NCBI RefSeq assembly: GCF_030811855.1
Contig: NZ_JAUSRN010000023.1
Span: forward strand, 1-64,000
Reading direction: 5' to 3'
Origin: Variovorax paradoxus
GTDB taxonomy: Bacteria > Pseudomonadota > Gammaproteobacteria > Burkholderiales > Burkholderiaceae_C
DNA: 64,000 bases
Part shown: positions 28,553 to 33,724 of the stretch, piece by piece
Numbering within the stretch: position 1 is the first letter of the stretch
Layout: each line of letters begins with the position of its first letter
Position numbers and translations under genes: made by a program
The notes under the pieces: model-generated
What the model was told of the DNA's origin: nothing
Databases searched by the model: none
Seen by the model: only the letters and a program-made list of their open reading frames with translations

Positions 28553-29233
28553 ATGAGCGCAGACAGCAGCATTTCGACCTGGCACCCGGTGGCACCCTCG
28601 GCGGAACTGCGCGCCGGCGCCAACATCGTTGCGGGCTTTGCCGAAGGCCGTGAACTCGCGCTCTGGCGCTCGGCCGACGGCACGGCCCAGGCATGGGAGA
28701 ACCGCTGCCCCCACCGCAGCGTGCGCTTCACGCTGGGGCAAGTGGTGGAAAACCGCCTCGTCTGCGCGTATCACGGATGGCAGTACGCCGCCGGCAATGG
28801 CCAATGCACCCACATTCCCGCGCATCCCGGCATGCCGCCGCCGCGCAACGTCTGCGCGAAGGTGTTCAGCGCGGTCGAAGCGGCGGGCATGGTCTGGGTC
28901 AATCTTGCGGAGGCGGTGCCCGCTGCTCCGCCGCCGGACGATGCCGTGCCCATGGGCTGGTCATTCTGCCAAACACTCACCGTTCGCGCCGATGCAACAG
29001 GCGTGCGCGATGCGCTCGCGGCGCGGGGCTTCATGGCGGATGCGTCATCGCATACCCTGCGCGGCGCGCTGGACCACATTGATACCGCGGCGCTGGTGCT
29101 CGATGCTCGGCCGCGCCTGGCATTCATTCACCTGTGGACCCCCGCCGCGAGGGGCACCGACAAGATGAAGGCGCTGCACACCGCCGCACGCGGACTGCGC
29201 GGCGAGATCGAAGCACGGCAATCTACGGCTTGA
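28553..29233 (+). CDS. Rieske [2Fe-2S] protein lacking an oxygenase catalytic domain
   Basis: A 226-residue protein. Residues 9-115 form a complete Rieske domain with cluster ligands C52-x-H54 and C71-x2-H74 (CPHRSVRF, CAYHGWQY) and the following MVWVNLAEA strand. The remaining 110 residues do not show the D-x2-H-x4-H iron site of Rieske oxygenases. The next gene encodes that site without a Rieske cluster, so the two look like one oxygenase divided between polypeptides, this one passing electrons. No ferredoxin or reductase gene is adjacent. Substrate unknown. Confidence 0.85.
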   Translation: MSADSSISTWHPVAPSAELRAGANIVAGFAEGRELALWRSADGTAQAWENRCPHRSVRFTLGQVVENRLVCAYHGWQYAAGNGQCTHIPAHPGMPPPRNVCAKVFSAVEAAGMVWVNLAEAVPAAPPPDDAVPMGWSFCQTLTVRADATGVRDALAARGFMADASSHTLRGALDHIDTAALVLDARPRLAFIHLWTPAARGTDKMKALHTAARGLRGEIEARQSTA

Positions 29234-29250
29234 CAGGGAAAAGGAACGCC

Positions 29251-30114
29251 ATGCCTTTCGTCACCGACGACCCCAACGTGCTCGACGACTGGCTGGTCGC
29301 CGGTCCGGCCGCCGCGCTGGCCGGCGCCTCCGAAGCGGAGCCCCGCGCGGCGCGCCTGCTCGGAGAAACGCTTCAGCTGTGGCGCGATGCGGCCGGCATG
29401 CCGCAATGCCGGCTAGGCTCACAGGCGCTGGCCGTCCAATCGCGCCACGGCTATCTCTGGGTTTGCCCAAGCGGCAAGCCCGCTAGGCCGCTGTTCGACT
29501 TTCCGGAATACGGCGAAGCGGGGCGCCGCATCGTCGATTGCGGCGGCATCGGCGTGGCCGTGTCGGGGCTGCGCGTGATCGAGAATTTCCTCGACATGGC
29601 GCACTTTCCCTTCGTGCATGCCGACATCCTGGGCCAGGTGCCGCACACCGAGGTCGCCAGGTACCAGGTGCAGGTCGACCCCGCCACGGGCGAAATTTGG
29701 GCCACCGACTGCCGCTTCTGGCAACCGCGCGCCTCGGCCGCCCACGAAGGCGGCAGCGAAGTGATTTACAAGTACCGGGTGATGCAGCCGCTCACCGCCA
29801 TGCTCTACAAGTCGAGCTCGCGCAACGGCGAGCTCGATGCCATCGGACTGTTCCTGCAACCGCTGGACGACGAACACGTGATTGCCCACACGCTGCTGGC
29901 CTGCTATGACGACACCTCGACCGATGCCGAGCTCATCGCGTTCCAGCACACCATCTTCGGACAGGACAAGCCGATTCTCGAGAACCACGCGTTCAAGCGC
30001 ATGCCGCTCGAAGGCCGCGCCGAGACGCCGACGCGCGGCGACACGTCTTCGGTTACCTACCGGCGCTGGCTGCGCGAGCGCGGGATGCGCTTTGGTGTGA
30101 GGCAGCCCGAATGA
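29251..30114 (+). CDS. Rieske-type oxygenase catalytic subunit without Rieske cluster ligands
   Basis: A 287-residue protein matching the catalytic part of ring-hydroxylating or demethylating oxygenases. The mononuclear iron site is D115-x2-H118-x4-H123 (ENFLDMAHFPFVH), and QDKPILENHAF late in the chain fits the third ligand region. The first 75 residues keep the outline of a Rieske domain (LLGETLQLWRDAAG and GYLWVCPSG), but the two cluster-binding loops are missing. AAAAGGA precedes the ATG. It lies 17 bp after the Rieske-only gene and overlaps a GST gene by 4 bp. The two probably work as one enzyme (inference). Confidence 0.85.
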   Translation: MPFVTDDPNVLDDWLVAGPAAALAGASEAEPRAARLLGETLQLWRDAAGMPQCRLGSQALAVQSRHGYLWVCPSGKPARPLFDFPEYGEAGRRIVDCGGIGVAVSGLRVIENFLDMAHFPFVHADILGQVPHTEVARYQVQVDPATGEIWATDCRFWQPRASAAHEGGSEVIYKYRVMQPLTAMLYKSSSRNGELDAIGLFLQPLDDEHVIAHTLLACYDDTSTDAELIAFQHTIFGQDKPILENHAFKRMPLEGRAETPTRGDTSSVTYRRWLRERGMRFGVRQPE

Positions 30115-30749
30115 TCCGGCTCTACGACTACGCGCTGTCGGGCAACTGCTTCAAGGTGCGGCAGATGCTCGCCTGGCTGGGCCTCGACTACCAGAGCGTG
30201 CCGGTCGACTTTCATCCGGGACGCGAACACAAGTCGGCCGCGTTCCTGGCGCGCGTCAACCCGCTCGGGCAGCTGCCGGTGATCGACGACGACGGCTTTG
30301 TGCTGCGCGATTCGCAGGCCATCCTCGTCTACCTCGCGAGCAAATACGACACGCAAGCCCGCTGGTACCCAGTCGACCCGCAACTGCGCGGCCAGATCGC
30401 GATGTGGTTTGCCACGGCCGACCAGATTACCCGCACGGCGTCGGCGGCGCGGCTGCACGATGCATTCAGCTACGAAACGATAGATATCGAGGCCTGCCGC
30501 CGCGGTGCGCATGAGGTCTTTCGGCTGCTGGACGACCATCTGGCCGAGCGCGCGAGCGGCGGGCTCCTATGGCTGGCCGGTCCGCACGCCACCGTGGCCG
30601 ACCTGGCCTGCTTTCCGTACGTGGCGCTGGCCGGCGAAGGCGGAATATCCCTTGACGAATATCCGGCGTTGCGACGGTGGGTCTGGAACTTTCGACACCT
30701 GCCCGGCTTCATCGGAATGTCGGGTATCTTTGCTGCGGCTCCAGCCTGA
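30111..30749 (+). CDS. Glutathione S-transferase family protein
   Basis: A 212-residue two-domain GST. The thioredoxin-like domain ([20 protein letters not shown], then [23 protein letters not shown]) is followed by a helical domain with the usual [16 protein letters not shown] segment. The start overlaps the oxygenase gene. A GST coupled to an oxygenase suggests handling of a reactive or ether-type product with glutathione (inference). Confidence 0.9.
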
Positions 30750-30801: not shown

Positions 30802-31908
<1,107 letters not shown>

Positions 31909-31928: not shown

Positions 31929-32852
31929 ATGAACCGCATGGAGCCCTTGCGCAAGATCGAAGCGGGCGTTCTGGAAGTCGCGTACTTCGAAGCCGGCCCC
32001 GCGGACGGCCCGCCCGTGCTGCTGATGCACGGCTTTCCCTACGACATTCATACCTACGCCGAAGTGGCGCCAATGCTCGCTCAGCAGGGTTGCCGCGTCA
32101 TCGTGCCTTACCTGCGAGGCTACGGTGCCACGCGCTTTCTGAGCGATGCCACGCCGCGGTCGGGCGAACAGGCCGCGCTTGGCGCCGACCTGCTCGCGCT
32201 GCTCGATGCCCTCGCTATTCCGCGCGCGGTGCTCGCCGGCTACGACTGGGGCGGTCGCGCCGCCTGCGTGGTGGCGGCGCTGTGGCCCGAGCGCTGCGCG
32301 GGGCTGGTCTCGCTCAACAGCTACAACATCCAGGACATCGCCAAGGCGATGGAGCCCGACACGCCCGCGAACGAGCAGAGCCTCTGGTACCAGTACTACT
32401 TTCACAGCGAGCGCGGCCGCGCCGGGCTGGCGAAGGACCGCAAGGCCCTCACCCGCCTGCTGTGGCAGCTGTGGTCGCCGACGTGGAAGTTCGACGACGC
32501 CACCTTCGAACGCAGCGCCGCCGCCTTCGACCACCCCGACTTCGTCGACGTGGTGATCCACTCGTACCGGCATCGCTTCGGGCTGGTCCCAGGCGATCCG
32601 GCCTACGGCTACATCGAGCGCCGCCTGGCCGCGCAGCCGGCGATTGCCGTGCCCGCCATCACCTTCGACGGCATCGACGACGGTGTGCGTCCGCCCGCCG
32701 ACGCTTCGGCCCATGCGCACCGTTTCAGCGGGCCCCGCTCGCATCGGCTGGTGCCCGGCGTCGGCCACAACCTGCCCCAGGAGGCACCGCGCATCTTTGC
32801 CGACGCCGTGCTCGAACTCGTGCCCGCACTCCACAACGACACCGACCGATGA
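31929..32852 (+). CDS. Alpha/beta hydrolase
   Basis: A 307-residue alpha/beta-fold hydrolase of the epoxide hydrolase/haloalkane dehalogenase type: LMHGFPYDIHTY (oxyanion HG), nucleophile region AGYDWGGR with Asp in the nucleophile position, and PGVGHNLPQE with the catalytic His. The Asp nucleophile favours an epoxide hydrolase or dehalogenase-like reaction over an esterase. It sits between frmA and fghA and overlaps fghA by 4 bp, so it is co-expressed with formaldehyde detoxification, but its substrate is unknown. Confidence 0.85.
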   Translation: MNRMEPLRKIEAGVLEVAYFEAGPADGPPVLLMHGFPYDIHTYAEVAPMLAQQGCRVIVPYLRGYGATRFLSDATPRSGEQAALGADLLALLDALAIPRAVLAGYDWGGRAACVVAALWPERCAGLVSLNSYNIQDIAKAMEPDTPANEQSLWYQYYFHSERGRAGLAKDRKALTRLLWQLWSPTWKFDDATFERSAAAFDHPDFVDVVIHSYRHRFGLVPGDPAYGYIERRLAAQPAIAVPAITFDGIDDGVRPPADASAHAHRFSGPRSHRLVPGVGHNLPQEAPRIFADAVLELVPALHNDTDR

Positions 32853-33724
32853 CCGACATCCTCAAGACCCTTTCCGAGCACCATGCCTTTGGCGGCGTGC
32901 AAAGCTTTCACGAGCACGCCTCGCATGAAATCGGCCTGCCGATGCGCTTCTCGGTCTACCTGCCGCCGCAGGCCGCGAACGGGCGCGTGCCTGCCCTGCT
33001 CTACCTCGCGGGGCTGACCTGCAACGAGGAAACCTTCGCGGTAAAGGCCGGCGCGCAGCGCATGGCCGCCAGCCTGGGCCTCGCGCTGATCGCGCCCGAC
33101 ACCAGCCCGCGCGGAAGCGCCGTCGAAAGCCTGCCCGGCGCCACCGCCAACTGGGACTTCGGCATTGGCGCAGGTTTCTACCTGGACGCCACCGAAGCGC
33201 CCTGGTCCGCCCACTGGCGCATGGAAAGCTGGATCGTGCACGAGCTGCTGCCCTTCGTGGGCCGGCACTTCGCCATCGACGACCAGCGCCTGGGCATCTG
33301 CGGTCATTCGATGGGCGGTCACGGCGCGCTCACGCTCGCGATGCGGCATCCCGGGCGCTTCAAGTCGCTGTCGGCTTTCGCCCCCATCTGCGCGCCCACG
33401 CAATGCCCGTGGGGCGAAAAGGCGTTCAGCGGCTACCTGGGCGAGTCGGGCGGAGACCGCGCACAGTGGCTGGCGCACGACGCCAGCGCACTCATGAAAT
33501 CGCAGACGGCCGCCCCCTACCCGCAGGGCATCCTGATCGACCAGGGCCTGGCCGACAAATTCCTTGCCGAGCAGCTCTACCCGGAAGCCTTCGAGGCCGC
33601 ATGCTTTGCCGCCGGCCAGCCGCTCACGCTGCGCCGGCACGCCGGCTACGACCACGGCTACTACTTCATCCAGACCTTCATGGCGGACCACATCGCCCAC
33701 CACGCGCAAACGCTCAACGTCTGA
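32849..33724 (+). CDS. fghA: S-formylglutathione hydrolase
   Basis: Splits S-formylglutathione into formate and glutathione. The 291-residue esterase-D family protein has LAGLTCNEETF, the nucleophile motif GHSMGGHGAL, PYPQGILIDQGLADKF with the catalytic Asp, and HAGYDHGYYF with the catalytic His. It completes the pathway begun by the frmA product. Its start overlaps the preceding hydrolase gene. Confidence 0.96.
   Translation: MTDILKTLSEHHAFGGVQSFHEHASHEIGLPMRFSVYLPPQAANGRVPALLYLAGLTCNEETFAVKAGAQRMAASLGLALIAPDTSPRGSAVESLPGATANWDFGIGAGFYLDATEAPWSAHWRMESWIVHELLPFVGRHFAIDDQRLGICGHSMGGHGALTLAMRHPGRFKSLSAFAPICAPTQCPWGEKAFSGYLGESGGDRAQWLAHDASALMKSQTAAPYPQGILIDQGLADKFLAEQLYPEAFEAACFAAGQPLTLRRHAGYDHGYYFIQTFMADHIAHHAQTLNV

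Follow-up and report, generated by a model that had tools for sequence, protein, structure and literature searches.

The window, by which we mean the whole stretch of 64,000 nucleotides analysed here (Variovorax paradoxus, RefSeq assembly GCF_030811855.1, contig NZ_JAUSRN010000023.1, positions 1 to 64,000), contains six genes on the plus strand that encode, in this order, the Rieske protein P0001, the catalytic protein P0002, a GST-like protein (P0003), FrmA, an alpha/beta hydrolase and FghA. P0001 and P0002 are separated by 17 bases, both frames are open over the coordinates listed below, and the spacing of the six genes suggests that they form one operon. FrmA and FghA both exceed the curated cut-offs of NCBI. 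The features are as follows.

28553..29233, plus strand: P0001, stand-alone Rieske subunit of 226 aa, with an intact [2Fe-2S] domain and a predicted degenerate catalytic domain
28706..28774, plus strand: [2Fe-2S] ligand motif C52-x-H54 ... C71-x2-H74, invariant in 66 rows
28961..29224, plus strand: residues 137-224 of P0001, predicted shrunken helix-grip (catalytic-type) domain without iron ligands (AlphaFold model, structural alignment)
29251..30114, plus strand: P0002, NdmC-like catalytic subunit of 287 aa, with an iron site and a Rieske domain without cluster loops
29272..29475, plus strand: residues 8-75 of P0002, remnant Rieske domain with deleted loops, limits approximate (profile-alignment gap, model strands)
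29584..29619, plus strand: N112..D115..H118..H123, the probable bridging Asp and two iron-ligand His, invariant in 66 rows (roles by alignment and recall)
29965..29967, plus strand: D239, likely third iron ligand, invariant in 66 rows; the aligned Asp is invariant in 11 intact oxygenases
30111..30749, plus strand: P0003, GST-like NdmE homologue, overlapping the P0002 stop by 4 bases
30802..31908, plus strand: FrmA, S-(hydroxymethyl)glutathione dehydrogenase (TIGR02818, 632 bits, cut-off 544)
31929..32852, plus strand: alpha/beta hydrolase between frmA and fghA (Pfam Abhydrolase_1)
32840..33724, plus strand: FghA, S-formylglutathione hydrolase, start approximate (TIGR02821, 411 bits, cut-off 282)

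Upstream, between 23138 and 28477, lie genes which we take by eye to be a PrkA-YeaH-SpoVR group and a divergent AroQ gene; SpoVR and AroQ adjoin the cluster in 7 of 16 loci of the genus. Over P0002, the closest named relatives among the matches listed are Variovorax sp. Root318D1 (96% identity) and OV700 (95%).

A preliminary description of this DNA had credited P0001 with an intact Rieske cluster site and no mononuclear iron site, and both statements hold. The Pfam Rieske family matches residues 9-93 (E 8e-20), no catalytic-domain family of Pfam matches at E up to 1, and C52, H54, C71 and H74 are invariant across 66 aligned Rieske partners, as we call the Rieske proteins that accompany NdmC-like genes. 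The protein nevertheless appears to be more than a mere Rieske domain. With 226 residues and a second folded domain in its AlphaFold model (mean pLDDT 94.1), it is not a single-domain ferredoxin of about 100 residues. The structural alignment to whole alpha subunits, among them dicamba monooxygenase, SxtT and GxtA, covers residues 5-226, and in its nine best rows extends over 215-217 residues (Z about 19, rmsd 2.9-3.4). Because the model aligns with whole alpha subunits, the strands and helices of residues 137-224 are best modelled as a shrunken catalytic domain.

Profile comparisons say less about this second half. The match of P0001 ends near residue 155 against intact oxygenases and near residue 157 against NdmC-like proteins. 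When the C-terminal part of the Rieske partners was cut out, it matched the NdmC-like catalytic profiles with 70% probability (E 4e-5, 25 columns), with all 20 column-shuffled controls at or below 0.5%; against intact oxygenases it reached 0.2%, which does not exceed the shuffled controls. Support from sequence for the catalytic-type domain is weak, and it is the fold model that carries the claim. In the fused NdmD-type proteins, the linker may be the same shrunken domain: compared with a profile of the stand-alone C-terminal part, 17 of 19 such linkers beat every shuffled control, 14 of them at E below 0.01.

P0002 shows the opposite pattern. Pfam VanA_C matches residues 108-276 (E 4e-19), with KshA_C just below its cut-off. 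The outline of a Rieske domain from which both cluster loops are gone, as noted earlier for this protein, was borne out: no Pfam Rieske family matches at E up to 1, and a profile of the P0002 family aligns nearly end to end with intact Rieske oxygenases, leaving a long gap, interrupted by few residues, across the C-x-H...C-x2-H region. The AlphaFold model (mean pLDDT 91.6) aligns over nearly its full length with SxtT (270 residues, Z 31.5, rmsd 2.0), so that the models of both P0001 and P0002 display the two-domain fold of an alpha subunit.

The iron site proposed for P0002, D115-x2-H118-x4-H123, is present, and H118 and H123 stand as ligands; the part that requires revision is D115, which by alignment is most likely the bridging aspartate. 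We take its position to be equivalent to that of the bridging Asp205 of naphthalene dioxygenase (NDO). The third, carboxylate ligand is then most likely D239. N112, D115, H118, H123 and D239 are all invariant across 66 aligned NdmC-like proteins. The retention of D115 in these 66 proteins, together with that of H74 in the 66 Rieske partners, is what would be expected if electrons cross between the two chains. Neither chain holds both metal sites, since P0001 carries the cluster motif only and P0002 the iron-site motif only.

This complementary loss extends well beyond the window. We gathered 108 loci, 80 of which are the best matches of one scan among the matches listed; 14 were dropped as repeats or near-copies (both copies from G010 included), which leaves 94 for the tallies. 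Because the loci were sampled by similarity and are unequal in length, the tallies are not frequencies. Among the matches listed, none of the 117 NdmC-like proteins contains the cluster motif, whereas it is present in 87 of the 89 Rieske partners, among which we count the fused NdmD-type proteins. The D..H....H motif is present in all 117 NdmC-like proteins and in just 1 of the 89 Rieske partners, again among the matches listed. That single Rieske partner belongs to locus L116 and bears the motif near the N-terminus of its Rieske domain. Intact oxygenases in the loci examined have both motifs in 7 of 7 cases, among the matches listed. L111 and L113 each contribute one of the two Rieske partners without a cluster motif, an extra copy whose second cysteine has been substituted.

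These extra copies (L111:3740-4309 in Pseudooceanicola, L113:3772-4341 in Paracoccus) adjoin a set with an intact motif. Intact Rieske oxygenases share loci with split sets in L005, L082, L085, L111, L113 and L131.

The pairing of the two genes, which had been put forward from this one locus, is conserved. Among 36 genomes of the same genus, 16 contain a P0002 match of at least 67% identity, and in all 16 it lies between a preceding Rieske gene and a GST gene that follows. In 14 of these 16, frmA comes next; one contig ends before that point, and G036 has none. A more distant form of P0002 (46-47%) is present in G005, G014 and G015, and G014 has both forms. A search of 61 genomes returned 20 matches to P0001 that run past residue 190, each of them beside an NdmC-like gene. 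A GST gene lies on the same strand within 2.2 kb of the Rieske gene in 87 of 89 cases, among the matches listed.

The heteromeric reading was also open to challenge by homologues of P0002 that work without P0001, and we looked for NdmC-like genes with no Rieske gene on the same strand within 3.5 kb. Fifteen rows were of this kind; L106 and L126 were excluded because the same loci hold a complete set, which leaves 13 loci in 12 genomes or records. Searching these 12 in their entirety with a profile of the Rieske partner gave a result that argues against independence. A full-profile match (start 5-9, end 216-218) was found in 9 of 12; whether a long frame contains a separate Rieske gene was checked where a gene model exists. 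Another two gave strong partial matches: G062 over positions 7-153 (E 1.9e-56) and the L003 plasmid over positions 6-123, in a frame of 218 aa (E 2.2e-49). The last, the draft genome G061, yielded only a weak match (E 4.8e-23, in a frame of 376 aa), about as strong as those that intact oxygenases produce, and this frame could be an intact oxygenase.

Taken with the fold models, the conserved pairing and the complementary motif loss lend good support to the proposal that the two proteins act as a heteromeric alpha subunit. Both chains appear to descend from a whole alpha subunit; the simplest history would be that such a subunit was duplicated and that each copy then lost what the other kept. 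A simple fission of one gene into two was considered and set aside, because a remnant of the partner's domain persists in both proteins; such mutual remnants fit duplication with complementary loss.

The preliminary description had also assumed that in the known family both sites always lie in one alpha subunit. This premise is outdated. According to a review (PMC4408171), the NdmC protein of Pseudomonas putida CBB5 is devoid of a Rieske cluster, the reductase NdmD bears an additional [2Fe-2S] cluster, and the system also needs NdmE, which is GST-like. Reviews (PMC4408171, PMC10380055) describe NdmCDE as a 7-methylxanthine N7-demethylase reported in 2013, and one of them gives a 3:3:3 complex (PMC10380055). 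The division of cluster and iron site has itself been known since that report.

The link between NdmCDE and the family described here runs through locus L131, which contains ndmB: its neighbouring oxygenase matches NdmB (PDB 6icl, E 3.5e-186), and its fused protein matches the NdmD ferredoxin of 6icm (E 1.5e-32). Identities to this cluster, and not to the CBB5 proteins themselves, are 45% for P0002, 41% over 118 residues for P0001 and 52% for P0003. More broadly, P0002 is 45-46% identical to NdmC-like proteins and likewise has no cluster loops; the Rieske domain of P0001 is homologous to the N-terminus of NdmD-type proteins (41-44% over 112-118 residues) and would supply electrons to P0002; P0003 shows 52-60% identity to its homologues, its role as a subunit being putative. 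The locus resembles NdmCDE in its cluster-less NdmC-like catalytic subunit, in the placement of the Rieske cluster on another chain, in the GST-like third protein and in the adjoining genes for formaldehyde oxidation. It differs in how the Rieske domain is connected. NdmCDE has this domain joined to an FMN/ferredoxin reductase in a single chain, NdmD, whereas in the window the Rieske protein is separate and ends at residue 226, the next genes are those for the NdmC-like protein, the GST and FrmA, and no reductase gene is found in the cluster.

Comparison with other members of the superfamily further defines what is distinctive here. NdmA and NdmB (PDB 6ick, 6icl) also form a hetero-oligomer of two alpha-type chains, described as alpha3-alpha'3 (PMC12445004), but both are described as complete and catalytic (PMC4408171, PMC10380055), unlike P0001 and P0002. 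SxtT and GxtA (PDB 6wn3, 6wnc), full-length alpha3 enzymes, are the best sequence matches of both proteins among solved structures, as well as the best fold match of P0002 and the tied best of P0001; SxtT has both metal sites in one chain, whereas P0001 and P0002 have one each. Three-component systems with a small Rieske ferredoxin likewise place a Rieske carrier on its own chain. In those systems the oxygenase keeps its own Rieske domain, whereas P0002 has lost the cluster-binding part of its own.

The position of the reductase varies among the loci: it may be joined to the Rieske protein or to the catalytic protein, stand free, or be missing from the locus. Among the matches listed, 35 of the 94 loci have an NdmD-type fusion and 7 show an NdmC-like gene only. 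In the others the Rieske gene is separate: 42 of them show no reductase gene within the locus, 8 contain a free-standing reductase gene, and in 2 the reductase is joined to the catalytic protein. The NdmC tree has long branches, and its root within the family is unsettled. It places the window in a group of 34 rows, every one of which has a separate Rieske protein (support 90 by a quick method, without bootstrap). This group is betaproteobacterial except for two metagenome bins, labelled Planctomycetota (L082) and Proteobacteria (L086).

The fusion to the catalytic protein is found in the genus of the window itself, at L059:6203-8038 (G005) and L061:4461-6272 (G014), with a separate Rieske gene adjoining. 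L060, a close relative of these two that is counted among the 8 loci with a separate reductase, has its reductase and catalytic parts in different frames and looks like a frame-shifted copy of the catalytic-fused kind. At L114:7891-9846 (Pseudonocardia dioxanivorans), the frame of the Rieske partner continues, where a reductase would be expected, into stretches which we take by eye to be similar to OHCU decarboxylase and tautomerase; the extended frame may be an artefact.

As for the GST, the preliminary description saw in it a hint of glutathione-dependent processing. The comparison with the required GST-like NdmE favours another role, and P0003 is proposed here as a structural partner. P0003 is 60% identical to a homologue from S. 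meliloti and 52% to the GST of the ndmB-containing cluster L131. The NPxGxxP motif, S10 and C13 are mostly kept among its homologues (76-85 of 85 each; C13 in 78 of 85). P0003 itself retains the serine of the glutathione-binding DSxA motif, but 63 of 85 homologues have alanine there, a substitution that speaks against glutathione chemistry in most NdmE-like GSTs. Glutathione-dependent capture of formaldehyde by the GST was considered as well and not taken up, in view of this substitution and of the occurrence of frmA in only 26 of the 69 loci with NdmC and GST genes, some of them incomplete, among the matches listed. Relatives of the alpha/beta hydrolase occur in 10 of 80 loci, among the matches listed, all from the genus of the window.

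The presence of frmA and fghA in the cluster points to a release of formaldehyde, and the enzyme most likely strips methyl groups from a small molecule. Gene neighbourhoods, in which each family was named from one representative and the genes were called with a crude caller, offer hints of purine-like substrates for the NdmC-like family: among the matches listed, 43 of 80 loci have an ABC binding protein of the PnrA/BMP type as a neighbour of the NdmC-like gene, 39 have an ABC ATPase there and 14 an amidohydrolase. The PnrA/BMP family is known for purine nucleosides. By eye, no purine gene or other substrate-specific gene was recognised among the genes of the window at about 23-35 kb. The one xanthine dehydrogenase family examined, NF043082, gave nothing over its cut-off in the genome of the window; just 1 of the 14 control genomes exceeded that cut-off, so the lack of a hit says little. 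For the substrate, our leading guess is a methylated purine.

Altogether, we consider it quite probable that the locus encodes one Rieske oxygenase spread over two chains, of the NdmCDE type, with a Rieske protein that has no reductase attached, and that it carries out a demethylation from which formaldehyde passes to FrmA and FghA. Electrons from NAD(P)H would reach the cluster of P0001 through a reductase encoded elsewhere, and would then pass from H74 of P0001 across the subunit interface to D115 and the iron (H118/H123/D239) of P0002. The GST-like P0003 might keep the complex assembled, which is the role proposed for NdmE. The iron site of P0002 would activate O2 and oxidise a methyl group on a nitrogen (or oxygen) of the substrate, and the released formaldehyde would be handled by FrmA and FghA. 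Each chain, in this scheme derived from a whole alpha subunit, would have kept the function that its partner lost.

The nearest alternative is that the cluster is a plain orthologue of NdmCDE for 7-methylxanthine, with the reductase relocated and nothing new in function. The homology of all three subunits to a cluster with an NdmB orthologue speaks for it, as does the frequent PnrA/BMP-type neighbour (43 of 80 loci, among the matches listed), but identity to that ndmB-containing cluster is just 41-52%, the group of the window in the NdmC tree is mostly betaproteobacterial and stands apart from the Pseudomonas rows, and the stretch at about 23-35 kb is the one in which no purine gene was recognised by eye; we regard it as unlikely. 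P0001 could also be an ordinary Rieske ferredoxin that serves full-length oxygenases, with P0002 using another donor. Its N-terminal domain does align with the ferredoxin of naphthalene dioxygenase (Z 16.0 over 102 residues), yet P0001 is twice as long and is matched best by whole alpha subunits, with 215-217 residues aligned, and the 20 matches past residue 190 from 61 genomes all adjoin an NdmC-like gene, which makes this reading improbable. That the locus is decaying, with one or both proteins no longer working, might be suspected from the fact that each has only one metal site where a normal alpha subunit has two, and from the relative L022, in which the catalytic gene is frame-shifted near its end. 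The invariance of the metal-site residues in the 66 rows of each alignment and a gene order common to 16 relatives of the genus stand against such decay, and we give it hardly any credence.

If the preferred reading of one oxygenase divided over two chains is followed, the question of assembly arises. In Rieske oxygenases with C3 symmetry, each cluster feeds the iron of the neighbouring subunit. A 2025 review describes the structurally characterised enzymes as consistently C3-symmetric oligomers (PMC12445004). We tentatively speculate, as a possibility that we hold to be somewhat less likely than its opposite, that the split enzymes constitute a distinct quaternary class, in which two reciprocally disabled alpha paralogues, useless alone, enter an obligate hetero-assembly with the reductase as a freely exchanged module. 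Since two kinds of subunit cannot alternate in a three-membered ring, such a class would require an arrangement other than the alternating trimer, for instance stacked trimers with transfer between them or a ring with an even number of members.

Rieske oxygenases are usually read as three-fold rings of self-sufficient alpha subunits, and here the two sites are divided, in many bacteria. A specialist might find novelty in three features: the separate Rieske protein, the anatomy of two twin alpha subunits and the shifting place of the reductase. The literature searched, with limited coverage of subscription papers, yielded no description of any of them. The split chains are natural constructs for the study of the electron step between subunits, a step that cannot be singled out in enzymes with both sites on one chain. 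NdmD expressed alone is reported to have a solubility under 5% (PMC10380055), and a 2026 paper refers to the structure of an NdmCDE-kind complex as unsolved (PMC13237722). A separate Rieske protein of 226 aa might avoid this poor solubility and make a complex of this kind approachable.

The genome of the window encodes four reductases that resemble the reductase part of NdmD-type proteins at E below 1e-40. By identity and tree placement the best candidate partner is the one at C20:2023-2985, with 47% identity to the NdmD-type reductase part against 36-39% for the other three, and its link to the cluster is suggestive only. All 16 relatives of the genus that carry the cluster in its close form have this gene (E up to 1e-80), against 8 of the 20 others (one-sided p 1e-4, uncorrected for kinship). 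Identity is at least 84% in 15 of the 16, one of them in two pieces, and 73% in G036; of the distant-form genomes among the other 20, G015 has it and G005 does not. In the five relatives compared, the gene lies among catabolic-type genes that are conserved with or without the cluster. Because the reductase occurs without the close form and within another conserved gene group, it may be non-dedicated. In a reductase tree with a midpoint root and long branches, where L149, 95% identical, represents the C20 row of the window's genome, the C20 relatives fall together with Ndm-type reductases that are free or fused to the catalytic protein (support 86, in a group whose rows were chosen by similarity to the C20 gene), and the other three reductases of the genome fall outside.
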